Shown: piece after piece, positions 3,500 to 58,509 of the stretch
Numbering within the stretch: the stretch's first letter is position 1
How the letters are laid out: every line of letters starts with the position of its first letter
Source of the DNA: Salipiger bermudensis
GTDB taxonomy: Bacteria; Pseudomonadota; Alphaproteobacteria; Rhodobacterales; Rhodobacteraceae
Assembly (NCBI RefSeq): GCF_020171625.1
Contig: NZ_JAIUZY010000001.1
Span: 310,001 to 374,000 of the forward strand
Length of the DNA stretch: 64,000 nt
Reading direction: 5' to 3'
Notes under the pieces: model-generated
Databases searched by the model: none
Told to the model about the DNA's origin: nothing
Seen by the model: only the letters and a program-made list of their open reading frames with translations
Program-made: the position numbers and the translations under genes

Positions 3500-3612
3500 G
3501 GGGGCGCTGCCCCCGCCCGCGCTGCGCGCGGACTCCCCCGGGATATTTTCGGCCAGAAGAAGACATGGGCGCAGCTCCCCTGGCTTCTCTTCGTCAAAAA
3601 TACTCCCGCCGG
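3500..3612 (+). repeat. Post-stop bipartite repeat element E1, with adjoining inverted arm
   Basis: Begins 49 bases after the Crp-type stop. A perfect hairpin (GGGGGC-GCT-GCCCCC, 3500-3514) is followed by a CG-rich palindrome and an arm ending GGATATTTTCGGCCAGAAGAAG at about 3541-3562. Bases 3582-3612 carry the arm in inverse orientation (GGCTTCTCTTCG then AAATACTCCCGCC). The order hairpin, second hairpin, TATTT...AGAAG arm is shared with E2 and E3. Confidence 0.7.
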
Positions 3613-3789
3613 AGGCAGGCCGGACAGATCGGCCGGGCGCGGCGCGGGGGCGAAGAGACGCGGGCCGGGGGCAGGTGGCTCCGAAGTTGCGGAGGGAGGC
3701 GGTGCGAGGCACCGAGGACGCGGTTTGCGGCGCCGCGTGGGCCGGGCGATCGTCATTGATTTCTTTCAATCTGGAAGCTGTGTGGTAAC

Positions 3790-3804
3790 GTTCCTGAAAT
3801 GTTC
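3790..3804 (+). promoter_or_regulatory. SOS box (LexA operator) of uvrA
   Basis: GTTC at 3790-3793, seven bases, GTTC at 3801-3804. This is an exact match to the direct-repeat LexA operator GTTC-N7-GTTC of alphaproteobacteria, 67 bases before the uvrA start. It predicts DNA-damage induction of uvrA. Confidence 0.88.
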
Positions 3805-3870
3805 CGGCATTGGCATTGGCCAAGCCGATGCTTTCACCTATGTAACGGGCAATCCCGTCTCGGAGGTCTC

Positions 3871-6747
3871 ATGCCAGAGCTGAAGCAGATCGAGGTTCGC
3901 GGTGCGCGCGAACACAATCTGAAATCCATCGATGTCGATATTCCCCGCGACGAGCTGGTGGTGATCACCGGCCTGTCGGGCTCGGGCAAGTCCTCGCTTG
4001 CCTTCGACACCATCTATGCCGAAGGGCAGCGCCGCTATGTCGAGAGCCTCTCGGCCTATGCGCGGCAGTTCCTCGACATGATGGAAAAGCCCGATGTCGA
4101 CCATATCGCCGGTCTGAGCCCGGCGATCTCCATCGAGCAGAAGACCACGTCGAAGAACCCGCGCTCGACCGTCGGCACGGTGACCGAGATCTACGACTAT
4201 CTCCGCCTGCTCTTCGCCCGCGTCGGCACGCCCTATTCGCCCGCCACCGGGATGCCGATCGAGGCACAGCAGGTGCAGGACATGGTCGACCGCGTCATGG
4301 GCATGGAAGAGGGCACCCGCGGCTACCTGCTGGCGCCGATCATCCGCGACCGTAAGGGCGAGTACCGCAAGGAGTTCCTCGAACTGCGCAAGCAGGGCTT
4401 CCAGCGCGTCAAGGTCGACGGCCAGTTCTACGAGCTCGACGAGCCGCCGACGCTCGACAAGAAATTCCGCCATGACATCGACGTGGTCGTCGACCGCATC
4501 GTGGTGCGCGAGGGGCTCGAGACCCGGCTGGCCGACAGCTTCCGCACCGCGCTCGATCTGGCCTCGGGCATCGCCATCCTCGAGACCGCCCCGAAGGAGG
4601 GCGAGCCCGAGCGCATCACCTTCTCGGAGAATTTCGCCTGCCCGGTGAGCGGCTTCACCATCCCCGAGATCGAGCCGCGCCTGTTCTCGTTCAACGCGCC
4701 GTTCGGGGCCTGCCCGGAATGCGACGGGCTTGGGGTCGAGCTGTTCTTCGACGAGCGTCTGGTGGTGCCCGATGCCACGCTGAAGGTCTCGGACGGGGCC
4801 ATCGCGCCGTGGCGCAAGGGCAAGTCGCCGTATTTCCTGCAGACCATCGAGTCGATCGCCAAGCATTACGAGTTCAATAAGAACGAGCGCTGGAAGGACC
4901 TTCCGGCGCATGTCCAGCAGGTCTTCCTGCATGGCTCGGGCGACGAGGAAATCCAGTTCCGCTATGACGAGGGCGGCCGGGTCTACCAGGTCTCGCGCGT
5001 GTTCGAGGGGGTGATCCCCAACATGGAGCGGCGCTACCGCGAGACCGACAGCAACTGGGTGCGCGAGGAGTTCGAGCGCTACCAGAACAACCGTCCTTGC
5101 GGCAGCTGCGGCGGCTACCGGCTGCGCGAAGAGGCGCTGGCGGTGAAGATCGGCAGCCCGGACAATCTTCTGCATATCGGCCACGTCGTCGAGATGTCGA
5201 TCAAGGAGGCCCATGCCTGGATCGAGACGGTGCCGGGCAACCTCACCGGTCAGAAGAACGAGATCGCCCGCGCCATCCTCAAGGAGATCCGCGAGCGGCT
5301 CGGCTTTCTCAACAACGTCGGGCTTGAGTACCTGACCATGAGCCGGGCCGCGGGCACGCTCTCGGGCGGCGAGAGCCAGCGCATCCGCCTCGCCAGCCAG
5401 ATCGGCAGCGGCCTGACCGGCGTGCTCTACGTGCTCGACGAGCCGTCCATCGGCCTGCACCAGCGCGACAATGACCGGCTGATCGGCACGCTGAAATCGC
5501 TGCGCGACCAGGGCAATACGGTGATCGTCGTCGAGCATGACGAGGACATGATCCGGCAGGCCGACTACGTCTTCGACATCGGCCCCGGCGCCGGGGTGCA
5601 TGGCGGGCAGGTGGTGAGCCACGGCAAGCCCGAGGAGATCGCCGCCGATCCCGGCAGCCTCACCGGTCAGTACCTTGCCGGCACGCGTGAGATCGCGGTG
5701 CCCGCCAAGCGCCGCAAGGGCAACAAGAAGAAGCTCAAGGTGGTCAAGGCGACGGGCAACAACCTCAAGGAGGTCACCGCCGAGTTCCCGCTGGGCAAGT
5801 TCGTCTGCGTCACCGGCGTGTCGGGTGGCGGCAAGTCCACCCTGACCATCGAGACGCTCTACAAGAACGCCGCGATGAAGCTCAACGGCGCACGCGAGAC
5901 GCCGGCGCCCTGCGAGACCATCAAGGGGTTCGAGCATCTCGACAAGGTCATCGACATCGACCAGCGCCCGATCGGCCGCACGCCGCGCTCGAACCCGGCC
6001 ACCTATACCGGCGCCTTCACCCCGATCCGCGATTGGTTCGCGGGGCTGCCCGAGGCCAAGGCCCGGGGCTACAAGCCGGGGCGGTTCTCCTTCAACGTGA
6101 AGGGCGGGCGCTGCGAGGCCTGTCAGGGCGACGGCGTCATCAAGATCGAGATGCACTTCCTGCCCGACGTCTATGTCGAGTGCGAGACCTGCAAGGGCAA
6201 GCGCTACAACCGCGAGACTCTGGAGATCAAGTTCAAGGGTAAGAGCATCGCCGATGTGCTTGATATGACTGTGGAAGAGGCGCAGGAGTTTTTTACCGCA
6301 GTGCCCTCGATCCGCGAGAAGATGGATGCGCTGATGCGCGTCGGGCTGGGCTACGTCAAGGTCGGCCAGCAGGCCACGACGCTTTCGGGCGGCGAGGCGC
6401 AGCGGGTGAAGCTGTCGAAGGAGCTGGCAAAGCGCTCGACCGGGCGCACGCTCTACATCCTCGACGAGCCGACCACCGGTCTGCATTTCGAGGATGTGCG
6501 CAAGCTGTTGGAAGTGCTGCACGAACTGGTCGAGGCCGGCAATACGGTGGTGGTGATCGAGCACAATCTCGACGTCATCAAGACCGCCGACCACATCATC
6601 GACATCGGTCCCGAGGGTGGCGATGGCGGTGGTGAGATCGTCGCGGTGGGCACACCCGAGGAGGTGGCCGAGGTCGCGCGCTCGCACACGGGGCACTACC
6701 TCAAACCGATGCTGGCGCCCGGCAAGGGGGCGGTGGCCGCGGAGTAA
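3871..6747 (+). CDS. uvrA: Excinuclease ABC subunit A
   Basis: 958 residues, full length. UvrA scans DNA for bulky lesions and loads UvrB in nucleotide excision repair. Both ABC ATPase modules are complete: Walker A GLSGSGKS at 34-41 and GVSGGGKST near 649; signatures LSGGES near 496 and LSGGEA near 838; Walker B with LDEP in both. Zinc-finger cysteine pairs (CPEC, CGSC, CEAC near 748, CETC near 771) are present. The ATG at 3871 is preceded by GGAGG (3862-3866) and matches the family N-terminus [17 protein letters not shown]; a longer in-frame start at 3799 overlaps the SOS box and is unlikely. An SOS box lies upstream and a bidirectional terminator downstream. Confidence 0.98.
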
Positions 6748-6824
6748 GCGCCTTGCGTGCTTCAGGCGCTGGTGCTGACTTGTTTCTGCACTTTAGGATT
6801 GGGCCTCAGCCCTCTGAATGAAAT

Positions 6825-6857
6825 GAAAAAAACCGCGCCTTGATGGGCGCGGTTTTT
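6825..6857. terminator. Bidirectional rho-independent terminator after uvrA
   Basis: Stem AACCGCGCC (6831-6839), six-base loop, GGCGCGGTT (6846-6854), with an A-run before and a T-run after. It can end transcription from uvrA and from the convergent small gene. Confidence 0.88.
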
Positions 6858-6880
6858 GTCTTTCCGGGGTAGGGGCGATG

Positions 6881-7228
6881 TCAGTCCGCCAGGGCGGCGA
6901 TTGCTCCAATGACGTTCAGCACCTTCCGGGTTTCGGGGTCGACACGATAGACCACGTCGTCATTGCGGTAATAGGTGCCGTCCGGCAGCCCGTAGCGATC
7001 CGGGTTGCGCAGGATGATCACGTCGCCGTCGATGCGGTCACCGGTGCGGTAGCGATAGCGGTAATCGTCGTCGTGCCGGTCGGTATAGCCCTTCACGTGG
7101 CCCGGCGGGTTACACCCGTTCTGCTTCTTGGCAAGGCCGGGCGGGCAGCCCTTGGGAGCGGCGCTGGCGGCGATCGGCATGGTAAGGGCGCCCGCGGACA
7201 GGGCGGCGAGGGCGAGGGTGCGGAACAT
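6881..7228 (-). CDS. Small exported protein, RcnB/CigR-like C-terminus
   Basis: 115 residues. The ATG at 7228 follows AAAGGAGAG with good spacing and starts a clear signal peptide (MFRTLALAALSAGALTM, cleavage near ASA). The mature part opens with CPPGLAKKQNGCNPPG, then a Tyr/Arg/Asp-rich stretch and a C-terminal segment with RYGLPDGTYYR and VYRVDPETRKVL. That layout recalls RcnB-type periplasmic proteins (nickel/cobalt homeostasis) and similar small proteins of this order; the assignment is tentative and no metal-binding role is shown. It faces uvrA across a shared terminator; the proximity is probably not functional. Confidence 0.75.
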   Translation of the reverse strand: MFRTLALAALSAGALTMPIAASAAPKGCPPGLAKKQNGCNPPGHVKGYTDRHDDDYRYRYRTGDRIDGDVIILRNPDRYGLPDGTYYRNDDVVYRVDPETRKVLNVIGAIAALAD

Positions 7229-7569
7229 CTGGGCTCTCCTTTTTCCGGAGAGTATAACGCAGCACGCGACAGGATTTGTTCCCCCTTGGTAAATGTGGGC
7301 GGTACACCGCTTATCGGTGCATTGGTGGGCCTTCCGCCTCATGTCGGGGCCCGACTTGATCTGCGCATGGAGCTGGTGGCAGGCGTCCAGCGGCGGCAAG
7401 GACTGCGCATTTGTGCACGCCTTCGACGGGAAAGCGATGCCCGCAACGAGGCGCCGGGGCTGGTCGATCTGCCCCAGTCTATTGGTGGAATGCGCTCTGG
7501 CGTTCGTGGCCCCGACAGATGGCCGCGTGTCCCATGCCCGCCCCCAGTATCGCGCCCAGCAAGTGTCGC
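7229..7569. other. Intergenic region with no recognised feature
   Basis: 341 bases upstream of the small exported protein and downstream of the enoyl-CoA hydratase gene, both on the minus strand. I see no hairpin followed by T's and no credible small gene; open frames here look like chance. Confidence 0.5.
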
Positions 7570-8355
7570 CTACCGCGCCCAGTCCGGAGGGCGCTTTTCG
7601 AGAAAGGCCGCGATGCCTTCCTCGGTGTCGCGCCAGAGCATGTTTTCGACCATGACCGCCCCGGCATGGGCATAGGCCTCATCAAGGCCCATCTCGGCCT
7701 GCGCATAGAAGGCTTCCTTGCCGATCTTTACTGCCGCGCCGAGCTTGCCGGCGACGGTCCCGGCCAGCGTGGCCGTGGCCTCGGCCAGTTCCGCGCCCGG
7801 CACGACGCGGTTGATCAGCCCCATCTGCACCGCCTCCTCGGCCTCGGCAAAACGACCGGTGGACAGCAGCTCGAAAGCCTGCTTGCGGGGGATGTTGCGG
7901 GTCAGCGCCACCATCGGGGTCGAGCAGAACAGGCCGATATTCACCCCGTTGACCCCGAACCGCGTGCCCTCGGCGGCCACCGCGAGATCGCAGGAGGCGA
8001 CGAGCTGGCAGCCGGCGGCGGTGGCGATCCCGTGCACCTGCGCGATGACCGGCTGGGGCAGGCGCTGGAGCCCCGTCATCACCTCGGTACAGCGGGCAAA
8101 GAGGTCGGCAAAGTAGGCCTTGCCGCCATCCTCGGCCTGCCGGCCCTGCTGCATCTGCCTGAGATCGTGGCCCGCGCAGAATGCCTTGCCCTCGCCTGAG
8201 ACCACCACGGCGCGGATCTCGCGATCCTCCCGCAGCGCGTCGATCTGCGCCTTGAACGCGGCGAGCATCTCGTCCGAGAGCGCGTTCAGCCGCTCGGGCG
8301 CGGTCATGCGCAGATGCGCGACCGCCCCGGTGTCGTGACGTTCCAGCAGAGCCAT
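7570..8355 (-). CDS. Enoyl-CoA hydratase/isomerase family protein
   Basis: 261 residues, a standard crotonase-fold length. The oxyanion-hole segments are visible: GEGKAFCAGHDLRQM near residues 52-66, and VHGIATAAGCQLVASCDLAV near 105-125. In place of the usual catalytic Glu pair, the region after HGIATAAGCQL fits the ECHDC3-like subgroup better than classical short-chain hydratases. The ATG at 8355 follows GGGAGGACAAG. It is divergent from a hotdog thioesterase whose start is only 58 bases away, suggesting shared control and a role in acyl-CoA handling. The substrate is unknown. Confidence 0.88.
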   Translation of the reverse strand: MALLERHDTGAVAHLRMTAPERLNALSDEMLAAFKAQIDALREDREIRAVVVSGEGKAFCAGHDLRQMQQGRQAEDGGKAYFADLFARCTEVMTGLQRLPQPVIAQVHGIATAAGCQLVASCDLAVAAEGTRFGVNGVNIGLFCSTPMVALTRNIPRKQAFELLSTGRFAEAEEAVQMGLINRVVPGAELAEATATLAGTVAGKLGAAVKIGKEAFYAQAEMGLDEAYAHAGAVMVENMLWRDTEEGIAAFLEKRPPDWAR

Positions 8356-8413
8356 CTTGTCCTCCCACTCCGTTTGCGCTGAGGTTAGCCCTGCGGCGAG
8401 CGGGAGGACAAGC

Positions 8414-8842
8414 ATGGCGCTGACGATGACGGTTGAGGAGGTCGAGAGCTACCTCGCGGAGGTGTTTCCGCAGGTCGACGGGATGTTCGGCATCGACCGG
8501 CTGGACGACGATCTGCTGGTGATGCGCCTGCACGTGTCCGATGCCCACCTGCGGCCCGGCGGCACGGTGTCCGGGCCGTCGATGTTCGCGCTCGCCGATG
8601 TCGCGGCCTATGTGGCGACGCTGGCGCGGATCGGGCGGCAGGCCCTGACGGTGACGACGCATTGCTCGATCGACTTCATGCGCAAGCCCGAGGCGGGCAG
8701 GGATCTGCTGGCGGAGGCGCGACTGCTCAAGCTCGGGCGCAGCCTGAGTGTTACCGATGTGCTTCTTTATTCCGAAGGCTCTGACAAACCGGTGGCGCAC
8801 GCGTCGCTGACCTATTCGATCCCGCCCGCGCCGGTTGGATAG
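8414..8842 (+). CDS. PaaI-type hotdog thioesterase
   Basis: 142 residues, one hotdog fold. HLRPGGTVSGPSMFALADVA at about 43-62 corresponds to the conserved N/HGG...D helix region of PaaI-type acyl-CoA thioesterases; THCSIDFMRKP follows. Such enzymes hydrolyse acyl- or aryl-CoA thioesters in the cytoplasm. The ATG at 8414 follows GGGAGGAC. An upstream in-frame ATG at 8357 lies inside the divergent hydratase leader and lacks a ribosome site. Confidence 0.85.
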   Translation: MALTMTVEEVESYLAEVFPQVDGMFGIDRLDDDLLVMRLHVSDAHLRPGGTVSGPSMFALADVAAYVATLARIGRQALTVTTHCSIDFMRKPEAGRDLLAEARLLKLGRSLSVTDVLLYSEGSDKPVAHASLTYSIPPAPVG

Positions 8843-8921
8843 GGCCGGGAGGCTTGTCCGATGCACGTTCAGTGATGCGTGACGCGGCTTCGTCCTTTGA
8901 AAAGCCCGCGACTCCACAATG

Positions 8922-8949
8922 AAAAAAGGCGCGAGGAATGCCTCGCGCC
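8922..8949 (-). terminator. Rho-independent terminator of the DUF1127 gene
   Basis: Perfect stem GGCGCGAGG (8928-8936) / CCTCGCGCC (8941-8949) with a four-base loop. On the minus strand it runs into six T's. It lies between convergent genes. Confidence 0.85.
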
Positions 8950-8979
8950 CAGGGGAAGAGGTTCCGGCAGGTCCGGGGA

Positions 8980-9207
8980 TCAGCCCTGCCAGAACATGCG
9001 GCGTGCCTCCTTGTAGGCGACGTGCCGTTCCAGGCCGACATCCCGCAGCAAATGATCGTCGAGCTGGCCAAGCGCCTTTCGGGTGCGCCGGCGCTCGGAC
9101 CATTTGGCCAGCACCACCGCAGTTCGCAGCGCAATTGCCGCGAGCAGCGGCAGCGGGCGCTGCGCCTCGAGATAGGCAATATGCGGGGCGTGGGTGGTGG
9201 TGGTCAT
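8980..9207 (-). CDS. DUF1127 domain-containing small protein
   Basis: 75 residues. The C-terminal part carries the DUF1127 (YjiS-like) pattern: WSERRRTRKALGQLDDHLLRD, then VGL and a basic tail. Members are small Arg-rich proteins; in other alphaproteobacteria they have been tied to RNA turnover and stress or phosphate responses, but this copy's role is unknown. The ATG at 9207 follows GGAG. It is divergent from a MocR-type regulator across about 50 bases filled with ATTGT/ACAAT half-sites, so that protein probably regulates it. Confidence 0.85.
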   Translation of the reverse strand: MTTTTHAPHIAYLEAQRPLPLLAAIALRTAVVLAKWSERRRTRKALGQLDDHLLRDVGLERHVAYKEARRMFWQG

Positions 9208-9224
9208 GGGGTGGCTCCGATTTT

Positions 9225-9311
9225 GTATTAGTACAATACCCTTGATTGTCGTGTTCAAATGATACATTGTGCAAATATGAGCGTCGAGAAGAACATTGTG
9301 ACCGATACAAT
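9225..9311. promoter_or_regulatory. Candidate operator cluster for the MocR-type regulator
   Basis: A perfect inverted repeat GTATT-AGTAC-AATAC spans 9225-9239. Five ATTGT/ACAAT half-sites occur at 9233-9237, 9245-9249, 9266-9270, 9295-9299 and 9307-9311, the last two forming ATTGT-N7-ACAAT. They lie between and into the divergent DUF1127 and MocR genes. Their role as binding sites is inferred from position and symmetry. Confidence 0.5.
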
Positions 9312-10701
9312 ATCCGAGCTGTTCGAAGCGCAGCCCGGTGGACCCAAGTACCGGGCGCTGTCAGCCGCGCTGCGGCAGGGCATCGCCGCCAAGCAGCTCG
9401 GCAATGGAACGCAGCTTCCGCCGGTGCGCGATCTTGCCTGGCGGCTCGGGATGACCCCGGGCACTGTCGCGCGCGCCTATACGCTGCTGACCGACGAGGG
9501 GCTTCTCGTTGCCGAAGTTGGCCGGGGCACCTTTGTCAGCGGCGCGCCGGAGCCGCGCCCGCCGCTCTACATCACCTTGCCCCAGAAGGAGGCGCCGGAC
9601 GGCGCCGAGATGGTGAGCCTGTTCACCGCGCGGCTTCCGGACCTCGGGCAGGTGGCGCTGATCCGGCAAGGATTTCAGCGCATTGCCGAACAGGAGGGGC
9701 GGGATCTGCTGGACTACCCGTCGGCGGCGTCCTTCGCGCCGGCGCGGCAGGCGGTGGTCGACTGGCTGGCCGGGGTTCCGCTCGGCGCGCTGCATCACGA
9801 GGACGTGGTGCTGTCGCACGGCGCCCAGAGCGGCATTTCTCTAGTGATGCAGGCCGTTCTGCGCGGGCGACGGCCAGTGGTGATGGTCGAAGAGCTGGCC
9901 TATCCGGGCTTTCGCCGCGCGGCCGAACTGCTGCGGGTCGAGATTGTATCGGTTCCTATGGACGAACACGGGATTGTACCATCCGCGCTCGCCGAGCTGG
10001 CGCGCCGGCACGAAGCGCAGCTGCTTTGTACCTCTCCCGAGCTGCACAATCCCACCGTCACGATCACCCCGCAGGACCGGCGACGCGAGATCGCCGCGGT
10101 GGCGCAAAGCTGCGGCTTCGACATTCTCGAGGATGACAGCACCTTCCTTGGCGACAGCCGCGCCGAGAGCTACCGGGCGCTGCTGCCCGATCAGGGCTGG
10201 TACGTGGCATCGATCTCGAAAACGCTCACTCCGGCGCTGCGCATCGGCTTTGCCATCGCCCCGCAGCGCAGCCGTACCGCGCTTCGGCGCGTCGCCGAGA
10301 ACGGCTTCTTCGGTCTCGCGCGGCCTCTGGCGGATCTGACCGAGGATCTGCTCACCCGGGAAGAGACCCGCCAGATCGTGCGCTCGGTGCGGCAGCGCAA
10401 CGCAGCCTATGTGCGCAGCACGGTGAACGCGCTTGGCGGGTTCGATCTGAGCTGGCACGAGGACTCGCCCTTCGTCTGGCTGCGGCTGCCCGCTGGCTGG
10501 CGCTCGGCCGCGTTCTGCCTCGCCGCCGAGCAGAAGGGGGTGCAGGTGCGCCCGGCGGAGGATTTCGCGCCGCGCACCGGCTTTGCGCCGCACGCCGTGC
10601 GCATCGGCATGAACGCCCAGGTGGAGATGTGCGAGTTCGAGGCGGCGCTGGCGCGGCTGCGCAGGCTGCTCGACAATCCGCCGGAGCAGATTCTGGTTTG
10701 A
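9259..10701 (+). CDS. MocR-type GntR regulator with aminotransferase-like domain
   Basis: 480 residues. An N-terminal GntR winged HTH (about 30-95, with LPPVRDLAWRLGMTPGTVARAY) is fused to a fold-type-I aminotransferase domain (about 110-470). The PLP-binding lysine is kept in SISKTLTPALRIGF, so a cofactor-linked effector is likely. MocR proteins such as PdxR, GabR and TauR control vitamin B6, GABA or taurine genes; nothing here identifies the effector. ATGs at 9259 and 9277 both lack a ribosome site, so the true start is uncertain. The adjacent divergent gene encodes a DUF1127 protein rather than a metabolic enzyme. Confidence 0.88.
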   Translation: MIHCANMSVEKNIVTDTISELFEAQPGGPKYRALSAALRQGIAAKQLGNGTQLPPVRDLAWRLGMTPGTVARAYTLLTDEGLLVAEVGRGTFVSGAPEPRPPLYITLPQKEAPDGAEMVSLFTARLPDLGQVALIRQGFQRIAEQEGRDLLDYPSAASFAPARQAVVDWLAGVPLGALHHEDVVLSHGAQSGISLVMQAVLRGRRPVVMVEELAYPGFRRAAELLRVEIVSVPMDEHGIVPSALAELARRHEAQLLCTSPELHNPTVTITPQDRRREIAAVAQSCGFDILEDDSTFLGDSRAESYRALLPDQGWYVASISKTLTPALRIGFAIAPQRSRTALRRVAENGFFGLARPLADLTEDLLTREETRQIVRSVRQRNAAYVRSTVNALGGFDLSWHEDSPFVWLRLPAGWRSAAFCLAAEQKGVQVRPAEDFAPRTGFAPHAVRIGMNAQVEMCEFEAALARLRRLLDNPPEQILV

Positions 10702-10771
10702 GATTGTGGGGTATTATTATACCATAATTTCAAGCATATGTTTTTGCTTGATAAATTTGATTTTTGCCCGC

Positions 10772-10799
10772 TTGACTGCAATTTCCGGACGCGTATAAC
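10772..10799 (+). promoter_or_regulatory. Sigma-70-type promoter of rplM-rpsI
   Basis: TTGACT at 10772-10777, a 16-base spacer, TATAAC at 10794-10799. It sits in an AT-rich stretch about 75 bases before the rplM start, consistent with a strong housekeeping promoter. Confidence 0.78.
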
Positions 10800-10836
10800 C
10801 CGGCAATCGGAATTCGGACCCTCCACGGTGTCCGCT

Positions 10837-10860
10837 CAAGACAAGCTCCAAGACAAGCTC
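10837..10860 (+). repeat. Exact 12-base tandem duplication in the rplM leader
   Basis: CAAGACAAGCTC is repeated twice without a gap in the 5' leader, just before the AAGGG ribosome site. It may be a simple duplication or part of a leader regulatory element. Confidence 0.7.
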
Positions 10861-10872
10861 AAGGGCAACACG

Positions 10873-11331: not shown

Positions 11332-11333
11332 TC

Positions 11334-11822: not shown

Positions 11823-11846
11823 TCGCTTCCTTTACGCAAATTTCAG

Positions 11847-32629: not shown

Positions 32630-32836
32630 TCAGAGGGGTTTCAGGTCCGATGCCATCATGCGACCGTCACGACCTTCCTTGAGATCGTAACTCACCCTTT
32701 GGTTGTCGGCGAGCCCGGTGAGGCCGGACCGCTCGACAGCAGAAATATGAACAAAAACGTCTTTCCCGCCCTCTTCCGGCGCAATGAAGCCGTAGCCTTT
32801 GGTCGTGTTGAACCATTTCACGGTGCCACTCGGCAT
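32630..32836 (-). CDS. cspA: Cold shock protein (CspA family)
   Basis: 68 residues, a single OB-fold CSD. RNA-binding motifs RNP1 (KGYGFIAPE) and RNP2 (VFVHISAV) are intact. The start at 32836 follows AAGGAGCACGGGAAC; longer frames are leader sequence. Acts as an RNA chaperone. The 230-base gap to the divergent ArsC-like gene can hold a long 5' leader, as in other csp genes, but no cold-box was identified. Confidence 0.95.
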   Translation of the reverse strand: MPSGTVKWFNTTKGYGFIAPEEGGKDVFVHISAVERSGLTGLADNQRVSYDLKEGRDGRMMASDLKPL

Positions 32837-33065
32837 GTTCCCGTGCTCCTTCCAGTCGTCCGATGTTGTTGCCCGGCCTGGCCCGGGCGCCCCGTCACAT
32901 TCGCCTTTCAGGAAGAAAGAGAGCTTATATTGCTGCACTTTCGGCGCTGATCATCGAAGGTCACGAAGCAAAGCGTTGCACAGGTTCGGCAAAAATCAAG
33001 AGAAAGACTTCGCTCCCGAAGCGATCGGCGATAATTTGTCGCCGCAAGACGAAGGAGAAGGCGAG

Positions 33066-36850: not shown

Positions 36851-37076
36851 GCCCGCCACCGATCGGCCCCGCCGGGACCTCGCGCCGGTCAACTCACAAA
36901 GCCGCGCCAGCCGCCCCGCGCCACGTCCTGAGCTTCTCTACGTCCCAAATACTCGAAAAATTTGCCCGCCACTTATCGGCCCCGCCGGGACCTCGCGCCT
37001 GTCATAGCACAAAGCCGCGCCAGCCGTCCCGCGCCACGTCCTGAGCTTCTCTACGTTCCAAATACTCAAAAAAGAA
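36851..37076 (-). repeat. Two tandem ~113-base intergenic repeats
   Basis: Copy 1 begins at 36851 and copy 2 at 36964; they match at most positions (for example ATCGGCCCCGCCGGGACCTC and GCCACGTCCTGAGCTTCTCT in both). A more divergent partial copy lies at about 36800-36846. On the gyrA strand each unit includes GAGTATTTGGRACGTAGAGAAG, which resembles the arm of the post-stop repeats elsewhere in the window. Confidence 0.85.
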
Positions 37077-37107
37077 ACCTCCCGGCCAGGAACCCCGGCC
37101 GGGAGGT
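37067..37107 (-). terminator. Rho-independent terminator of gyrA
   Basis: Stem ACCTCCCGGCC (37077-37087) / GGCCGGGAGGT (37097-37107), nine-base loop, then TTTCTTTTTT on the minus strand. Confidence 0.9.
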
Positions 37108-37133
37108 CAGAAACCATGGCGATGCGGGACCGC

Positions 37134-40389: not shown

Positions 40390-40459
40390 AGGGGCGCTGC
40401 CCCTCTTTCGCCGGCGGGCCTGCGAAATTCACCCCGAGGTATTTCAAGAACCAGAGAAG
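40390..40459 (+). repeat. Post-stop bipartite repeat element E2
   Basis: 27 bases after the usg stop. Hairpin AGGGGC-GCT-GCCCCT (40390-40404), second stem TTTCGC/GCGAAA, then the arm CACCCCGAGGTATTTCAAGA...AGAGAAG ending at 40459. The arm matches E3 at nearly every base. Confidence 0.85.
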
Positions 40460-40597: not shown

Positions 40598-40666
40598 CTT
40601 CTTTGGTTCGAAAATACCTTCGGGGGGTGAATTCGCGGATGCGAAGAGGGGGGCAGACAGCCCCCC
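40598..40666 (-). repeat. Post-stop bipartite repeat element E4 (reverse orientation)
   Basis: 33 bases after the stop of the minus-strand lipoprotein gene. Reading toward the gene end: arm CTTCTTTGGTTCGAAAATAC and CGGGGGGTGAATTC, a TTCGC-ggat-GCGAA stem (about 40632-40645), then a GGGGGGC/GCCCCCC hairpin (40648-40666). Confidence 0.75.
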
Positions 40667-51423: not shown

Positions 51424-51491
51424 AGCGGGGCGGGGCCGGACGCGGTATGCGGTCCGGCGCACCTCGAACCGGCGTTAGTACGATCTTAGGG

Positions 51492-51525
51492 AAACGGAGC
51501 GGTGAAGACCGCTCCGTTTTCTTTT
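51492..51525 (+). terminator. Rho-independent terminator of the Hint-domain gene
   Basis: Stem AAACGGAGCGGT (51492-51503) / ACCGCTCCGTTT (51508-51519), four-base loop, T-rich tail (TCTTTT). Confidence 0.9.
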
Positions 51526-51610
51526 GCGCGATGCCGGGGTTGGGCCTGTCGCCAACACGTAGGTGGCGGGAGCGGCGAACATGCCCAAGGCGGCTTGGAT
51601 CAGTCGGCAG

Positions 51611-51642
51611 GAAAAAGGCCGCGCCCGGAGGGGGCGCGGCCT
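51611..51642 (-). terminator. Rho-independent terminator of the TRAP operon
   Basis: Stem AGGCCGCGCCC (51616-51626) / GGGCGCGGCCT (51632-51642), five-base loop, TTTTTC on the minus strand. It lies 34 bases past the dctM stop. Confidence 0.88.
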
Positions 51643-51675
51643 GTGTTCTCAGAAGCTGTCGGGGCGCAGCCGCGC

Positions 51676-53103
51676 TCAGTTGCCGTAGGCCACCGAGGGC
51701 AGCCACGTGGTCAGTTGCGGGAACTCGAACACGATGAACAGGCCGATCAGCTGCAGGATCACGAAGGGCACGATCCCGCGATAGATGTGCGACAGCGACA
51801 CCCCCGGCGGGCAGACGCCCTTGAGGTAGAACAGCGCAAAGCCCACCGGTGGCGTCAGGAACGAGGTCTGCAGGGTCACCGCCACGAGAATGGCGAACCA
51901 CACGACCTGCGGGTCGCGCACTTGGTCATAGCCCGGGACCGCCAGCTCCAACCCCTGAATGATCGGCAGCATCAGCGGCATGATGATGATGGTGATCTCG
52001 ATCCAGTCGAGCAGGAAGCCGAGGCAGAACACGATGAACAGGATGAAGGCCAAGGTCCAGTAGGGGCTGTCGAAGGCCGAGAGCACCAGCTCCTGCACGA
52101 TCTCGTCGCCGCCATAGCGGCGCAGCACGTAGGCGAAGAAGTTGGCCGCAAGGAAGATGCCGACGATATAGCCCGAGGTGTTGAGCGTTGAGCGGGCCAC
52201 CTCGCGGAAGACCTTCCAGTTCAGTTTGCGAGCAAACAGCGCCAGAAGCGTCGCGCCGAAGGCCCCGAGGCCCGAGGCTTCGGTGGGGGTCGCGAGGCCC
52301 ACGAAGATCGATCCCAGCACCAGCAGGATCAGGAACATCGGCGGCACCACCGCGACCAGCACCTCCTTCACCTCGCTCCATCCGACGCGGGAGCTGCGCT
52401 CGGGCGCCGGCATCGCGTCTGGCGCGATGAACCCGTAGACCACGATGAACACGATGTAGAGCGCGCCGAGGATCAGGCCCGGGAACAGCGCGCCCATGAA
52501 CAGGTCGCCAAGCGAGATCGCAAGCTGGTCCGACATGATGACCAGCATGATCGAGGGCGGGATCAGGATGCCCAGCGTCCCGGCCGAGGCGATGGTGCCG
52601 GTGGCGATGGGCTTGGAGTAGTTCTGCGCCATCATCGCAGGCAGGGCCATCACGCCGAGCAGCGTCACCGAGGCGCCGATCACGCCGGTCGAGGCGGCAA
52701 GGATGATGCCGATCAGCAGCACGGTCAGCGACAGCCCGCCGCGCAACCCGCCGAACAGCTTCTGCATGGCGTGCATCATGCGCTGCGCCACGCCGGACTG
52801 GTCGAGCATCAGGCCCATGTAGATGAACATCGGCAGCGCCACGAGCACCGGGTTCTTGATGGTGTTGCCGAAGATCCGCCCCGACAGCGCCTGCAGCTTG
52901 CGATAATCGATGCCGGTGCGGTCGAAGGCCATGATCTCGCCCCAGAAGCGGCGATAGGGATCGAGCCCGATCTCGGCGATCAGCACGAAGACGAGGCTCA
53001 CGCCGACAAGGGCAAAGGCCACCGGGATGCCGCGGAACAGCATCCAGATGAAGGTGGCGAACATCGCCGCGACGGCGATTTCGTTGATGGTCAGCCACTC
53101 CAT
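51676..53103 (-). CDS. dctM: TRAP transporter large permease (DctM family)
   Basis: 475 residues and about 13 hydrophobic segments, the usual size for DctM/TakM. Typical motifs include VALPMFIYMGLMLDQSGVA near 86-104, GASVTLLGVMALPAMM near 143 and TPPVGFALFYLKG near 418. It couples solute import to sodium. Its ATG follows the dctQ stop by one base, so it is the last gene of a dctP-dctQ-dctM operon closed by a terminator. Confidence 0.95.
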   Translation of the reverse strand: MEWLTINEIAVAAMFATFIWMLFRGIPVAFALVGVSLVFVLIAEIGLDPYRRFWGEIMAFDRTGIDYRKLQALSGRIFGNTIKNPVLVALPMFIYMGLMLDQSGVAQRMMHAMQKLFGGLRGGLSLTVLLIGIILAASTGVIGASVTLLGVMALPAMMAQNYSKPIATGTIASAGTLGILIPPSIMLVIMSDQLAISLGDLFMGALFPGLILGALYIVFIVVYGFIAPDAMPAPERSSRVGWSEVKEVLVAVVPPMFLILLVLGSIFVGLATPTEASGLGAFGATLLALFARKLNWKVFREVARSTLNTSGYIVGIFLAANFFAYVLRRYGGDEIVQELVLSAFDSPYWTLAFILFIVFCLGFLLDWIEITIIIMPLMLPIIQGLELAVPGYDQVRDPQVVWFAILVAVTLQTSFLTPPVGFALFYLKGVCPPGVSLSHIYRGIVPFVILQLIGLFIVFEFPQLTTWLPSVAYGN

Positions 53104-53104
53104 G

Positions 53105-53902
53105 TCAGGCGTCCTTGCGGTCGAAGAGGCGCGCCACGACGATGGCGACGACGGTCAGGATGAGGGCGATGAGGATGGTCCAGCGCATCTCGTGCTGGCC
53201 GAACTCCCATGCGTCGAAGATCGGCAGGCGGCTCACGTCGCGGGCGCTCATCTCGGGATCGCGGGTGGCGTAGGCGACGCCGAAGATGGCGTAGTAGCAC
53301 ACGAGGTTGATGGCATAGGCCACCGACGGGAACGCGAAGAGCAGCTGTTTCCACAGCGCCGGGCGGGTGAGCTTTGCAAGCAGGCGAACATAGGCCGACC
53401 ACACCGCGATGGCGACGAAGATGAAGGCCAGGTTCATGAAGCCCTTCATGATCCAGAGATTGTGCAGCCCGTTGGGGCTGTCGGAACCTTCGTCGGCGCG
53501 GATCGAGGTCAGCGCGTAATCGAGCGTCACGTCCCAGCACAGCAGGATGAACGGCAGGAACAGCCAGACAAGCCCGAGGATGTCGGTGCGGATGCGCTTT
53601 CTCTGCTCGAAGTTGTCGTAGAAGATATCGACCCGCACGTGGCTGTTGGTGGTCACCGCGTAGCCGATCCCCATCAACACCGCGGCGCCGTAGAGCCACC
53701 ACTGCAGATCGTCGAGCCAGGCCTGATTGTGGCCCATCTGGCGCAGCACCACCTGCGCACAGATCGCGATCATCAGGATCGGGAACAGCCATGCGGCCAG
53801 GTTCGAAACCTGGATGACGAAACGGTCGCCACGATTATGGTCTGCGCGCCCGATCTCTCCCGGATCGGAGATCGCGGCCACGACCTCGGTTTGCTCGCTC
53901 AT
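53105..53902 (-). CDS. dctQ: TRAP transporter small permease (DctQ family)
   Basis: 265 residues, longer than most DctQ proteins (about 170-230). Segments: about 32-52, 70-87, 113-130, 155-175 and 240-258. The DctQ signature VLMGIGYAVTTNSHVRVDIFYDNF near 80-103 is clear. The added central loop (EGSDSPNGLHNLWIMKG) and an extra pair of helices fit the long TakQ-like subtype. The start at 53902 follows GGGAGGCAGGCTCG. Confidence 0.93.
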   Translation of the reverse strand: MSEQTEVVAAISDPGEIGRADHNRGDRFVIQVSNLAAWLFPILMIAICAQVVLRQMGHNQAWLDDLQWWLYGAAVLMGIGYAVTTNSHVRVDIFYDNFEQRKRIRTDILGLVWLFLPFILLCWDVTLDYALTSIRADEGSDSPNGLHNLWIMKGFMNLAFIFVAIAVWSAYVRLLAKLTRPALWKQLLFAFPSVAYAINLVCYYAIFGVAYATRDPEMSARDVSRLPIFDAWEFGQHEMRWTILIALILTVVAIVVARLFDRKDA

Positions 53903-53980
53903 CGAGCCTGCCTCCCTCAAGCATGTATGGCCGGGACGGAGATGCCGCCCCGGCCTTGGTCGGTATGGCTGACGCCGGGC

Positions 53981-55042
53981 TTACTGGTCGGCGACCGAGG
54001 TGTAGGGGCGCGGCAGGTAGATGTTGTTCGACCACAGCTTGTAGTCCTGACGGAACTGCTGCAGGTCGTCCCAGACCTCCTGGAAGAACGGGTCCTCGGC
54101 GCCAAGCTCGTCGGCAACCTCGAGCCACGCGCTCTCGAACTGCTGGAGTTGCTCCTCGCTCCAGTTCTTGATCTCGACGCCGTGCTCGTCGACGTTTTCC
54201 TTCATCGCCGGGAAGTTCTTGGCTTCGCCCTCGGCGAAGTTGTCGGCGAGGTTGGCCATGCAGGCGATCTCGATCTGGTTCTGGGCGATCTCGTCCAGGT
54301 CTTCCCAGCGGTCCTTGTTGATCAGCAGCTCGAACATGGTCGAGGGCTGGTGCCAGCCGGGGAAGTAGTTGTACTTCGCGATGTTGTAGAAGCCGAGGTT
54401 GGCATCCACCAGCGGCATCGAGAATTCGGTCGCATCGATCGCGCCGCGCTCGAGCGCCGGGAAGATGTCGCCGCCCGCGAGCAGCGAGGTCGACACGCCG
54501 AGCTTCTGCATCACTTCCGCGCCGAGGCCGAAGAAGCGCATGTTGAGGCCCTGCAGGTCCTCCATCGAGTTGATTTCCTTCTTGAACCAGCCCGAGGTTT
54601 CCGGCGCGTACATGCCGCAGAGGATGACCTTCACGTTGTAGCCGTTGTCGTCATACATCTGCTGGAAGTACTTCATACCGTCGTCATAAAGCATCCAGGC
54701 CAGCATCTCGCCCGGCTCGGGGCCGAAGGGCACCGCGGCGAAAAGGCCGGCGGCGTTCATCTTGCCCTGCCAGTAGCCGCTCGTGGAATAGGCCGCGTCG
54801 ACCGAGCCGTTCGAGGTCGCATCGAGCATCTCGAGCGCGGGCACAAGTTCGCCGGGGTTGAAGTGCTCGAATTCCACCTCGGTCGAGATCGAGTTGATCT
54901 TGTCGACGAAGTTGACCGACGCGGTGCCGAGGATCGGCAGGTTGTTGGCGTAGCCGCTGGTCATCTCGAACAGTTCCTGCGCCGAACCGGCGCCGGTCAT
55001 CACGAAAGAGGCCGCTACCGCGGCCGCGAAAGTCCGTTTCAT
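53981..55042 (-). CDS. dctP: TRAP transporter substrate-binding protein (DctP, TakP-like)
   Basis: 353 residues with a signal peptide (TFAAAVAASFVMTGAGSA). Periplasmic receptor for a C4/keto- or hydroxy-acid. LERGAIDATEFSMPLVDANLGFYNIAKYNYFPGWHQ, near residues 205-240, is the region that builds the TakP-type pocket; the substrate-contacting arginine in GLNMRFFGLGAE is kept. This suggests a 2-oxo monocarboxylate or lactate-type substrate, by analogy with TakP. The ATG at 55042 follows CAGGGAGGAAAACCA. It is the first gene of the operon. Confidence 0.9.
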   Translation of the reverse strand: MKRTFAAAVAASFVMTGAGSAQELFEMTSGYANNLPILGTASVNFVDKINSISTEVEFEHFNPGELVPALEMLDATSNGSVDAAYSTSGYWQGKMNAAGLFAAVPFGPEPGEMLAWMLYDDGMKYFQQMYDDNGYNVKVILCGMYAPETSGWFKKEINSMEDLQGLNMRFFGLGAEVMQKLGVSTSLLAGGDIFPALERGAIDATEFSMPLVDANLGFYNIAKYNYFPGWHQPSTMFELLINKDRWEDLDEIAQNQIEIACMANLADNFAEGEAKNFPAMKENVDEHGVEIKNWSEEQLQQFESAWLEVADELGAEDPFFQEVWDDLQQFRQDYKLWSNNIYLPRPYTSVADQ

Positions 55043-55367
55043 TGGTTTTCCTCCCTGTAAGTCCCTCGCCCTCTCCCGTGGGCGTTCGGCAGTCTCCAAT
55101 CTGCCGGGTCTAGACGGTAACGGGGGCGTGATGCGGTGTGAATACCCAATACTGCGCAGAGGCGTGCGTTTGCATGTGTCCCGTGATCGGACGCCGGATC
55201 TCTGCCGGCGTTGGTCCTCGGGCTGGTTGGCAGCCAGAGACGGGACGACGTCCCGGCCCGATCACGGGTGGTCCGCGACGGCCCGGCATTGTGAGCGCGC
55301 GGCGCTTGCGGGCGGTCACCAAAACCTCTTTAGCTGCGCGCAGCGCAGGTTGCAGAAGGACACAGCG
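55043..55367. other. Divergent intergenic region with a cloverleaf-like structure
   Basis: 325 bases between dctP (minus) and the DUF2157-like gene (plus). The centre holds four nested perfect inverted repeats (listed separately). The right end carries GAAGGACACAGCG, the ribosome site of the next gene. Promoters were not identified. Confidence 0.6.
55180..55268 (+). ncRNA. Candidate structured RNA, cloverleaf of four perfect stems
   Basis: P1 CCCGTGATCGG (55180-55190) pairs with CCGATCACGGG (55258-55268). Inside it are P2 ACGCCGG/CCGGCGT (55191-55197/55205-55211), P3 GGCTG/CAGCC (55221-55225/55231-55235) and P4 CGGGAC/GTCCCG (55241-55246/55250-55255). GTCCCG also occurs at 55178-55183 and could compete for the P4 strand. 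It is not a tRNA: there is no T-loop or anticodon arrangement. It may be a leader element of the downstream gene 100 bases away, or a DNA element. The strand is assumed. Confidence 0.45.
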
Positions 55368-56591
55368 ATGCACGCAGTCGCAGATACAGGGCGCCTGGTG
55401 GCGGACGGCATCATCACCCCGGCGCAGGCCGGCGAGATCGAGGCGCGGGCCCGCGAGGCGATGATCGCGCTGGCGGTGAATACGATCCTTGTCACCGGCA
55501 TCCTCGCCGCCACCGGCGGTCTGATCTTCTGGCTGGCCAGCCCGCTGGCGGTGGCCGTCGGCGGCACGCTGACGCTGCTCTGCGGGGTTGCGGTCCTGCT
55601 GCGCGGCGGCGCGATGCTGCGCATGTTCGGCAATGCCGCGACGCTGATCGGCGCGGGGATGCTGCTCGGAGGCGGCGCGCTGGAGCTGCTCGACAATCAC
55701 CCCGACCACGCCGGCGCTGTGATGCTGGTGACCGGCGCGCTGATCGCTCTGCTGTCGGCGCTGGCGCTGCGGCGGGCACGCGCGCCGGCACGCTTCTCCA
55801 CCGCCGCGATCCTGCTGATGGGGCTGGCGCTGCACCTCGGCGGCCTCGCCTATCTCGTGGGGGACAACGCGGTCTCGGGGCTGCCGATCAGCGTCTACTA
55901 CCTCTACACCGCGGCGGTGATCGCGTGGGGCGGCTGGCGCGTCGATGTGCGTCTGGTCACGGCGCTGTCCGTCGTGCCGTTCGCGCAGATGCTCGACACC
56001 TCGACGTTCTATTTCCACGCGGCCTACGTGTTCTTCTCGCCCGAGCCGACGCTGTCGATCCTGCAGATGGCGCTGCTGATCTGCGGCTGTCTCTGGCTCG
56101 CCGGGCGGAGCGACGAGCGGTTGGCGCGGCACGCGCGGGTGCTGATGGTTCTGGCCTTTGTTGTCGCCAATCTCTGCGCCCTCGTCGGGACCCTCTGGGG
56201 CGACGTGGTGGGCGAGCACATCTGGGGGCCGGGGCGCTATCGCTACGGCGATGCGACCTTTTCCTACGAGGAGTTCGCCGCCCTGCGCGAGCGCTTCCGC
56301 GACTCGACGCTGGTGATTTCGCGGCACGCCTACACGGCGCTCTGGGCGCTGGCGCTGATCGCGATGCTCGTCTGGGCCGGGCTTCGAAACCAGCGCGGGC
56401 TGTTCAACGCGGCTCTGACCTTCGCTGCGATCCACGCCTACACCCAGCTCTTCGAGAGCTTCTGGGACGAACCGCTCGCCTATGTCGTGGCCGGTCTCAC
56501 TGCGATCCCGCTGGCGTGGGGCGCGTGGAGGCTGAACCTCTGGCTCAGGAGCCGGGCTGCGCCGGCGCCTTCGCCGCGCGCCGCGCCATGA
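55368..56591 (+). CDS. DUF2157-like multi-pass membrane protein
   Basis: 407 residues. A short cytoplasmic helix pair (GRLVADGIITPAQAGEIEARAREAM, the DUF2157-type start) is followed by about ten hydrophobic segments up to residue 395. A polar loop at about 285-310 (GEHIWGPGRYRYGDATFSYEEF) and SFWDEPLAYVVAG near the end are conserved-looking. Function is unknown. AGAAGGACACAGCG precedes the ATG; the longer frame starting at 55128 would run through the candidate RNA. The last 47 bases overlap the convergent GntR gene. Confidence 0.8.
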   Translation: MHAVADTGRLVADGIITPAQAGEIEARAREAMIALAVNTILVTGILAATGGLIFWLASPLAVAVGGTLTLLCGVAVLLRGGAMLRMFGNAATLIGAGMLLGGGALELLDNHPDHAGAVMLVTGALIALLSALALRRARAPARFSTAAILLMGLALHLGGLAYLVGDNAVSGLPISVYYLYTAAVIAWGGWRVDVRLVTALSVVPFAQMLDTSTFYFHAAYVFFSPEPTLSILQMALLICGCLWLAGRSDERLARHARVLMVLAFVVANLCALVGTLWGDVVGEHIWGPGRYRYGDATFSYEEFAALRERFRDSTLVISRHAYTALWALALIAMLVWAGLRNQRGLFNAALTFAAIHAYTQLFESFWDEPLAYVVAGLTAIPLAWGAWRLNLWLRSRAAPAPSPRAAP

Positions 56592-57294
56592 CGGCGCCGG
56601 CGAGCTCGACCGTGTAACGCTCGAGCGCGGTGAGCGCGGCGTCGCAGGCGGCCGCGTCCTGCGCCTCGACCGCGTCAGTGACGGCCCGGTGCAGGGCGGC
56701 GATGCGGGCCCGGTCCCGGGCGGTGAAGGTGATCATGTTCATCAGCGGCTGCATCGCCTCGACCGCCCCGGCGAGCTGGTAGGACAGCACCGGGTTGGCG
56801 GCGGCATCGACCAGCGCCCGGTGGAAGGCCACGTCGGAGGCGCAGAACGCCTCGTCGCTGAGCTGCGCGTCGGACTGGCGGGCAAGCTCGGCGCGCATGG
56901 TGTCCAGATGCGCGCTCGTGCGCCGCGCGCAGGCCAGCGGGGCGCAGGCGCGTTCCATCGCGAAGCGGGCCTCGCAGGCGGTCTCGAGCGGGATGGCGTT
57001 CATCGACAGGAGCAGCGTCGAGGTGGTGATCTGCTGGCCATGCGCCGCCTCGTAGGAGAGGTGGTTGACGAAGGCGCCGCCGGTGGCGCCGCGTCGGCTC
57101 CGGATCAGCGACTGCGCGGCCAGCCGCTTCAGCGCCTCGCGCACCGTCGGCCGCGACACGCCGTATTGCTCGGCGAGCTCGGCCTCGGAGGGCAGCCGGT
57201 CTCCGACAAGCAGCCGGCCCGCGACGATGTCATCGCGCAGGGAGCGGGCGATCTCGGTGGAGCGATCGGTCTTCGGGGGACTTGCTGACGACAT
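56545..57294 (-). CDS. FadR-type GntR transcriptional regulator
   Basis: 249 residues. Winged HTH at about 12-70 (LPSEAELAEQYGVSRPTVREALKRLAAQ), FCD effector domain at about 95-225 with metal-binding-type residues (CASDVAFHRALVDAA near 150, LHRAVTDAVEAQD near 205). FCD proteins answer to small organic acids. The ATG at 57294 follows a typical GntR operator 15 bases upstream, so autoregulation is likely. Its 3' end overlaps the membrane-protein gene by 47 bases. Confidence 0.9.
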   Translation of the reverse strand: MSSASPPKTDRSTEIARSLRDDIVAGRLLVGDRLPSEAELAEQYGVSRPTVREALKRLAAQSLIRSRRGATGGAFVNHLSYEAAHGQQITTSTLLLSMNAIPLETACEARFAMERACAPLACARRTSAHLDTMRAELARQSDAQLSDEAFCASDVAFHRALVDAAANPVLSYQLAGAVEAMQPLMNMITFTARDRARIAALHRAVTDAVEAQDAAACDAALTALERYTVELAGAVMARRAAKAPAQPGS

Positions 57295-57308
57295 GAGGCG
57301 GTGTTTAT

Positions 57309-57319
57309 TTGTCAGACAA
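57309..57319. promoter_or_regulatory. FadR/GntR-type operator
   Basis: TTGTC-A-GACAA, a perfect palindrome that fits TNGTNNNACNA of FadR-subfamily regulators. It is between the divergent GntR and DinB genes. Confidence 0.7.
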
Positions 57320-57382
57320 TTGACTGTCCAGCGCCGAGTCTCCGTCTCGGCGCATGGCATAGCCAGAGAAGGACCCGCTGCG

Positions 57383-57898
57383 ATGCTGTCCCCGGACTAC
57401 GTGCTGAGCATGGCGCGCTACAATGCCTGGCAGAACCGCCAGATGAAGGCCGCGCTCGAGGCGCTGCCCGAGGCCGAGCTGAAGCGCGACCGGGGGGCGT
57501 TTTTCGGATCGATCTTCGCTACGGTCAACCATCTGCTCTGGGGCGATGCCATGTGGATGAGCCGGGTCTCGGACTGGTCAAAGCCGGATGTCGGTATCGA
57601 CGGCAGCACTGGAATGACGCCGACGCTCGCGGTCTGGAGCGCCGAGCGGTTCCGGGCCGATGCGCGGATGCTGCTCTGGGCCGAGCGGCTGCGGGCGGTG
57701 GATCTGACCGGCGACCTGCGCTGGTATTCCGGCGCCACGGGGCGCACGCAGGTCCGGCCCGCGGGCCAGTGCGTGGCGCATATGTTCAACCATCAGACCC
57801 ATCACCGGGGACAGATCCACGCCATGGTGACGGCAGCGGGCGGCGCGGGCTGGATGAGCGATCTCGTCTACATGCCGGGCGAGGGGCCGTGGCTGTGA
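57383..57898 (+). CDS. DinB family putative metal-dependent protein
   Basis: 171 residues, a four-helix bundle. The three histidines of the DinB/YfiT nickel- or zinc-binding site appear as H50 (FATVNHLLWGD) and two in AHMFNHQTHHRGQIH (about 132-147). DinB proteins often use low-molecular-weight thiols; this one's substrate is unknown. The ATG at 57383 follows AGAAGGACCCGCTGCG. It is divergent from the FadR-type gene and may be its target. A post-stop repeat (E3) starts 15 bases after its stop. Confidence 0.88.
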   Translation: MLSPDYVLSMARYNAWQNRQMKAALEALPEAELKRDRGAFFGSIFATVNHLLWGDAMWMSRVSDWSKPDVGIDGSTGMTPTLAVWSAERFRADARMLLWAERLRAVDLTGDLRWYSGATGRTQVRPAGQCVAHMFNHQTHHRGQIHAMVTAAGGAGWMSDLVYMPGEGPWL

Positions 57899-58509
57899 GC
57901 GTGGGGGCAGGGAGGGGCGCTGCCCCTCTGCCGCCCATGGGGCGGCATTCACCCCGAGGTATTTGAAAACCAGAGAAGCAGCCTGCCGGGGCTTGGGTGG
58001 AGAGAGCAGGCGCTCTGAGTGGGGCGCGTATGGTCGGGCCACTGCGACCAGCGCCGCGGTGCGCGGGATCGGATATGACCCGTTGCTGGCGGCGACGACG
58101 GCGTGGCGGTGGGGGCGGACATCCTGAACGGCAGGCAGCGGGTCGGTCTCCGCGGGGCGCGGGATGTGCTGATGGCAATGCCCGGCGGGAGGGCGGGTCG
58201 GCGCCTGCGAGGGACCCGCGGAGGGCGCGCGAGGGCCGCGCTTCGGGCCGCATCGTTGTGCATGAAAACCAGCGAACAACCAAAACGCGATCCTAGGAGG
58301 TCGCATTTGCGAATAAATGTCGTTTTTGGACAACTATGCGCCTTGTCCCTTTTTGCCTTAACCGTTAGGTGCGCTACCCTGCGTCATCGGCGGTGTTTTG
58401 CCACATCGCCGTAATCACGGGCCGACGCCGCGCTTTCGCACCCCTCGCAGGGCGGGCGGCGGTCGAAAAGCCGGGGCCAACCCGGGTAACCTGGACACAG
58501 GAGGGACAC
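57899..58509. other. Intergenic region between DinB and Usp genes
   Basis: 611 bases. The left end holds element E3. The middle (57985-58260) has only low-complexity GC-rich frames in several directions. From about 58260 AT content rises toward the Usp start, fitting a promoter zone; TAGGAGG at about 58295 could serve a 35-codon TTG-started frame, which I do not call. Confidence 0.55.
57913..57978 (+). repeat. Post-stop bipartite repeat element E3
   Basis: 15 bases after the DinB stop. Hairpin AGGGGC-GCT-GCCCCT (57913-57927), second hairpin GCCGCCC-ATG-GGGCGGC (57930-57946), arm CACCCCGAGGTATTTGAAAA...AGAGAAG ending at 57978. Arm and first hairpin are almost identical to E2, 17.5 kb away. 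Confidence 0.85.

Follow-up and report, generated by a model that had tools for sequence, protein, structure and literature searches.

A modular REP-like repeat family near gene ends in Salipiger bermudensis, with a compensated stem and cores varying between genomes

A window of 64,000 nucleotides (nt) from the genome of Salipiger bermudensis (contig NZ_JAIUZY010000001.1, positions 310,001 to 374,000) exhibits four copies of a short element, which combines a GC hairpin and another stem with a conserved 3' core, close to the stop codons of genes. These copies belong to a high-copy family of modular build, with a compensated second stem (stem 2), an intergenic location leaning towards gene ends, inverted pairs of fixed spacing, positions shared between genomes, and cores that vary from one genome to another. 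Structure and distribution of the family are established from the sequences, and from these we infer its function. The best explanation, to which we assign a probability of roughly 0.45, is that this is a family resembling the repetitive extragenic palindromic (REP) sequences and the bacterial interspersed mosaic elements (BIMEs), without a recognisable REP transposase, whose RNA would form a 3' border protected by hairpins, next to an AU-rich site open to cleavage.

Anatomy and RNA structure of the family

The pattern GRRRTATTTNNNRMSMRRWGAAG, with at most one mismatch, yielded 225 matches in the genome (115 forward, 110 reverse), against none for the reversed pattern. The dispersed repeat proposed in the initial annotation of the window is thus a genuine family. 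Within 536 kb of stretches fetched around matches among those listed for each core type, we catalogued at least 239 copies (84 of type A, 91 of type B and 64 of type C). This number is a lower bound, because the looser pattern was applied to the fetched stretches only and misses insertion-bearing copies such as the one at position 40390 of the window. Each copy consists of an interchangeable 5' hairpin module and a 23-nt core of the general form GRRRTATTTnnn...AGAAG, which occurs as type A (GAGGTATTTnnnAACCARAGAAG), type B (GGAGTATTTnnnACGAAGAGAAG) and type C (GGGATATTTnnnGCCAGAAGAAG). The 5' module is a GC hairpin followed by stem 2 and a C-run, a hairpin followed by a short linker and a C-run, or an "alpha" module, GCCTCCGGCG, which in its exact form accompanies type B in 65 copies, type C in 15 and type A in none.

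The initial annotation had taken stems compensated by different bases as a sign that RNA structure is kept, and both a swap test and an analysis of double-sided changes bear this out for stem 2. Over 132 distinct regions, the halves of stem 2 form 6.57 base pairs with their own partner, against 4.42 (standard deviation 0.08) with swapped partners and 4.12 in shuffled regions. Among 22 equal-length copies with G- and C-runs of 5/5/5 bases (of 23 found), 93.8% of the cells pair and 36 change on both sides, where shuffles give a mean of 14.7 and reach this number in none of 500 cases. The double-sided changes are spread over six of the eight stem 2 pairs; one pair is open in 14 of the 22 copies, and the count of further pair types is no higher than in shuffles (8 vs 7.2). 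Stem 1 is invariant in these copies and hence uninformative on covariation. Orthologous copies compensate as well: our copy C7:114041 and locus L143 carry TTGCCCC/GGGGCAA, while the two copies of L104 carry TTGCGCC/GGCGCAA and TTGTCCC/GGGACAA. Folding is more stable in copies with a hairpin module (142 copies) than in their mononucleotide shuffles, at a mean z of -1.9.

The hairpin and C-run plan, found in 142 of the 239 own copies and in 110 copies from other genomes, displays a further regularity in the lengths of one G-run and two C-runs. The second C-run is as long as the first in 130 of the 142 own copies, in which the three lengths correlate with rho 0.84 to 0.88, and the runs are equal in 97 of the 110 foreign copies. 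Counted per distinct stem 2 region, equality holds for 79 of 89 own regions and 39 of 47 elsewhere without Salipiger, counts from which the relatedness of copies is not removed. The 4/4/4, 5/5/5 and 6/6/6 forms are found in two module classes or more. We rejected a ground-state switch in which the G-run would pair with the second C-run, since forcing this pairing carries a median penalty of 7.2 kcal/mol, and a penalty of at most 3 kcal/mol in 18 of 142 copies.

Three other observations concern the surroundings of the elements. Tandem units of about 50 nt (a GC hairpin, a GTCGCACC-GAA-GGTGCG stem and an A-rich linker) lie upstream of hairpin 1 in some type A/B pairs (e.g. L032, G000 C3:149818). 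Element cores are found some 160-210 nt from five contig ends of G000 (the end of C1 and the starts of C7, C11, C13 and C15), a pattern that would arise if hairpin repeats had broken the assembly. The AGAAG end of the core is found 2-14 nt upstream of a called start codon at L024, L065, L011 (own genome), for ksgA, glcE and one further gene, where it could act as a ribosome-binding site.

Inverted pairs, gene ends and orthologous loci

The catalogue contains 62 inward-facing pairs, with a spacing of 44 nt in 43 pairs, 43 in 10, 45 in three, 42 in two and another value in four. Regular spacing with alternating orientation, as in BIMEs, is therefore found in 58 of the 62 pairs (42-45 nt). All but two pairs (60/62) combine an arm bearing a hairpin module with an alpha arm. 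Among catalogued copies there are no outward-facing pairs within 200 nt and 17 tandem arrangements within 300 nt. In ungapped profiles of 57 aligned pairs (the remaining five, of other spacing or modules, being left out), similarity decays about 20 nt beyond the alpha core and about 50 nt beyond the other core. No sharp outer boundary appears in these profiles, and the pairs were rejected as transposon ends on this ground, target duplications not having been searched for. Avoidance of perfect palindromes was likewise discarded. Same-type pairs are fewer than free shuffling predicts (9 vs 21.2), a deficit already accounted for by the joining of a hairpin arm to an alpha arm.

Genes were called with a gene finder trained for this analysis, which recovered 28 of 29 annotated stops and no extra gene in a named Salipiger plasmid stretch. 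Just two of the 239 copies overlap a called gene; 64 are co-directional in sense, 51 co-directional in antisense, 94 convergent and 18 divergent, and 10 are incomplete. Merging the copies, except those with a gene overlap or a missing flanking call, produces 154 sites (81 co-directional, 59 convergent and 14 divergent). The baseline is the single window, where gaps of at least 60 nt comprise 23 co-directional, 5 convergent and 7 divergent ones. Convergent gaps are enriched relative to it (59/154 vs 5/35, p = 0.006), and divergent gaps are scarcer without reaching significance (14/154 vs 7/35, p = 0.08). The lean towards gene ends thus agrees with the initial annotation. Its view that the hairpin faces the stop codon on the coding strand does not hold as a rule, since single-copy co-directional sites divide into 29 sense and 21 antisense (p = 0.32), next to 25 convergent and 10 divergent single-copy sites; before merging, unpaired copies were 41 sense and 28 antisense. 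In L288, a record with annotation, both neighbouring genes run antisense to the element. In summary, gene ends are favoured and strand hardly. Random placement and a lack of covariation, the two outcomes that the annotation had named as contrary to its proposal, were both looked for and neither was seen.

A pattern search of the order Rhodobacterales found matches in 82 of 121 genomes and 45 of 58 genera, with none for the reversed control in any genome. Genomes with listed places show cores of their own, e.g. GGAG...CCAAGATGAAG, GGGA...ACCCAAAGAAG or GGAG...CAACGAAGAAG, and two occur in some genomes. Among the matches listed, named carriers of the A core include Salipiger bermudensis, Maritimibacter, Chachezhania, Tropicibacter, Marivita and Planktotalea. 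Alignment of the flanks of our copies to loci of relatives places the element at the same position and identically oriented in Salipiger and some other genera; many other aligned flanks contain no element of types A, B or C. The core type can differ at an orthologous place (C in our C13:22164 and A in L185; B in our C6:206551 and A in L141), and type ratios are biased as the aligned loci were chosen by the A pattern among the matches listed.

Two gaps were followed across genera. The glcD-glcE gap was sampled without selection for the element, as the 30 best glcE loci among 61 genera, 28 of which were resolved (all but L303 and L307). By eye, 18 of the 28 carry an element, always in sense, one carries a core only and nine carry none; four of the 18 are decayed (L292, L295, L296 and L309). 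These copies keep the plan of the element, and their sequence has turned over. On a tree of GlcD and GlcE, presence of the element needs nine changes (shuffled mean 8.4, at least four being forced), that is, it is unclustered. In the argJ-mutT gap, the element is found in three of 30 loci, all antisense, and no core was seen by eye in the other 27. The argJ-mutT gap of one genus (L324) exhibits another perfect palindrome at the place that elsewhere is empty or occupied by the element.

The elements of the window

All four elements are present where the initial annotation had placed them. The distances between called stop and hairpin start, taken from the coordinates, are 49 nt (stop at 3451), 27 nt (40363), 15 nt (57898) and 33 nt (40699), as in its range of 15-49. 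The AGGGGC-GCT-GCCCCT hairpin that it reported for two of them is found at 40390 and 57913. The core that it quoted is exact in the 57913 copy and inexact in the other three. Element 1 (3500-3562, + strand) has hairpin 1 at 3500-3514, stem 2 at 3515-3534, a C-run at 3535-3539 and a differing core, GGGATATTTTCGGCCAGAAGAAG, of type C at 3540-3562. It is one arm of an inward-facing pair, the other arm of which had been overlooked (3584-3616, - strand; type B core at 3584-3606, alpha module at 3607-3616). Element 2 (40390-40459, + strand) has hairpin 1 at 40390-40404, stem 2 at 40406-40427, a C-run at 40432-40435 and at 40436-40459 a type A core with one additional base, there being five bases instead of four between TATTT and ACCAGAGAAG. 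It was read from the sequence and is outside the catalogue, the pattern of which permits no insertion; elements 1, 3 and 4 and the partner of element 1 are found in both. Element 3 (57913-57978, + strand) has hairpin 1 at 57913-57927, stem 2 at 57929-57947, a C-run at 57952-57955 and a type A core at 57956-57978. Element 4 (40598-40666, - strand) has hairpin 1, stem 2, a six-base C-run and a type A core at 40598-40620, which reads CCCCGAAGG...ACCAAAGAAG. The type A pattern matches twice in the window and not at all in 100 shuffles.

The window holds two additional type B cores, both on the - strand. The one at 36933-36955, taken from the catalogue, has no recognised hairpin module. The other (37046-37068) directly follows a canonical terminator-like hairpin with a T-run (37108 to 37076), the whole occupying 37046-37108. 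A search of the window against Rfam gave three matches at E up to 1, all below the gathering score. One of them, to asX3 (E = 0.26), lies on the opposite strand and overlaps the 40390 copy at its start. A cspA thermoregulator match at 32670-33053 (- strand; 38.6 of 78 bits, E = 2e-6) is also under the cut-off.

Known repeats and possible functions

The family shares with GTAG-type REPs and BIMEs, which are accompanied by a REP-associated tyrosine transposase (RAYT), high copy number, intergenic palindromes (225 matches and two gene overlaps here), inverted composites and several types per genome, as described in PMC2817692. It differs from them in having two hairpins, a conserved 23-nt tail and positions common to genera, no fixed GTAG/GTGG head, and no match to the REP transposase family (Y1_Tnp, PF01797) in the own genome. 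In 24 of 146 copies, a GTAG, GTGG or GGAG lies no more than 12 nt upstream of hairpin 1, where the sequence is G-rich. Controls of the Y1_Tnp search, which gave 0 matches in the own genome, were positive in 5 of 14. Y1_Tnp is found in 13 of the 121 genomes of the order, including G020, G075 and G079, which also have elements (19 to 33 matches). As it has no match in the own genome or in any of the seven survey genomes with at least 50 element matches (G000, G035, G051, G065, G087, G089 and G099), mobilisation of the RAYT type was rejected. The layout fits the mobile REP-like family considered in the initial annotation, but the REP transposase family is without a match in this genome.

REPs tagged by CGTC are known from all alphaproteobacterial orders and are likewise palindromic repeats without a dedicated transposase, often dimeric; their single stem of 8-9 base pairs, loop of 4-5 nt, CGTC end and short tail differ from the anatomy seen here (PMC3733652). 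The scan for this tag covered the sequence before hairpin 1, where CGTC stands in 10 of 146 copies; type B cores contain CGTC on the reverse strand. Twelve names from the order Rhodobacterales (six of genera and six of other taxa) are absent from the text of PMC3733652, figures not covered, and five genus names of the family are absent from the accessible part of a 2025 REP survey (PMC12306157). The HRC-8-4 motif of Rhodobacterales is also a terminator-like stem in intergenic DNA, but it is tied mainly to cco operons or hvrB (PMC8632094), whereas our elements are dispersed. The known intercistronic hairpin with an effect on message stability occupies a single site, in contrast to a repeat family; both are set apart by description only. 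A literature search, mostly of titles and abstract starts, found no description of this repeat in Rhodobacteraceae and met the motif strings only in two papers on unrelated subjects. The family is thus REP-like rather than REP proper, and appears to form a new branch within a class of repeats already known.

In a transcript reading through the element, the hairpins would act as a stable 3' border, a nuclease of the RNase E type would cut the adjoining AU-rich RUAUUU, and the upstream message would retain a hairpin-protected 3' end. Inside operons such as glcD-glcE, the upstream message might thereby be uncoupled from the next cistron. The consensus of RNase E is R-N-W-U-U, which lies over TATTT in 235 of the 239 copies, a match that the search pattern almost forces. 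On the strength of this consensus and of the AU enrichment at RNase E sites in Rhodobacter sphaeroides, the RUAUUU next to the hairpins agrees with an AU-rich site of RNase E. This enrichment is described in PMC6238624, and the hindrance of 3'-to-5' decay by structured RNA in the same species in PMC7866481. The compensated stem 2, the compensation at orthologous places, the stability of the hairpins, the glcD-glcE gap and the BIME-like pairs together suggest such a border. Several points weigh against it. Alpha modules do not exceed shuffles in stability (mean z of 0.09 over 82 copies), antisense copies come close to sense ones in number, and the argJ-mutT copies share an antisense orientation. 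The unclustered presence at glcD-glcE implies that the element comes and goes and is not indispensable. This model assigns no role to the equal lengths of the G- and C-runs or to the conservation of the core in its 3' half.

The modules might instead be terminator hairpins ending transcription at UAUUU, an inward-facing pair then being two terminators tail to tail. The convergent enrichment, the type B core directly after the terminator-like hairpin at 37108-37046, and the T-rich tract of alpha and many hairpin copies, from which the hairpin usually lies several bases away, are consistent with this. Yet an operon-internal element of stable orientation between two subunit genes, as in glcD-glcE, favours a message border over a plain terminator. 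Antisense copies exist, the core past the T-tract is conserved where it would stay untranscribed, and a scan of the stretch around 37108-37046 found three terminator-like sites against 2.3 expected from shuffles; we regard termination as unlikely. That the elements are selfish repeats, similar to REPs or to miniature inverted-repeat transposable elements, moved in trans by an enzyme and settling where they do least harm without a host role, would suit the weak strand preference, the gain or loss of elements at one and the same gap in different genera, composites of fixed spacing, and swaps of modules and cores. It accords poorly with the place and orientation common to different genera, the compensated stems at orthologous places, the indistinct outer boundary of the pairs and the distribution of Y1_Tnp, and appears unlikely. 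Less likely still, in our view, is that the elements bind a chromosome protein (gyrase, IHF or another factor) as DNA, at the ends of transcription units; hairpin modules vary widely in sequence, and no candidate protein was found, none having been sought. Near strand-neutral placement with convergent enrichment, a strict core with variable inner bases and cores that differ between genomes as if tracking a partner would agree with such sites, and gyrase and IHF do bind REPs and BIMEs of Escherichia coli (PMC2817692).

Under the preferred reading of a message border, the family may have spread or been homogenised via an enzyme or via conversion between copies. A transposase-free system is conceivable, if doubtful, in which hundreds of sites keep place and orientation while the 23-nt core and the hairpin modules change together between genera, as if a trans-acting factor read the core, and in which strand exchange, third-strand contact or templated correction would keep the G-run and the two C-runs equal. 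The abundance of the family makes it a natural experiment, with many comparable intercistronic hairpins and some orthologous operon gaps with and without the element. Such gaps allow tests of a border function in mRNA and of spread without RAYT, and the variation of the cores between genomes points to a trans-acting partner that can be searched for.

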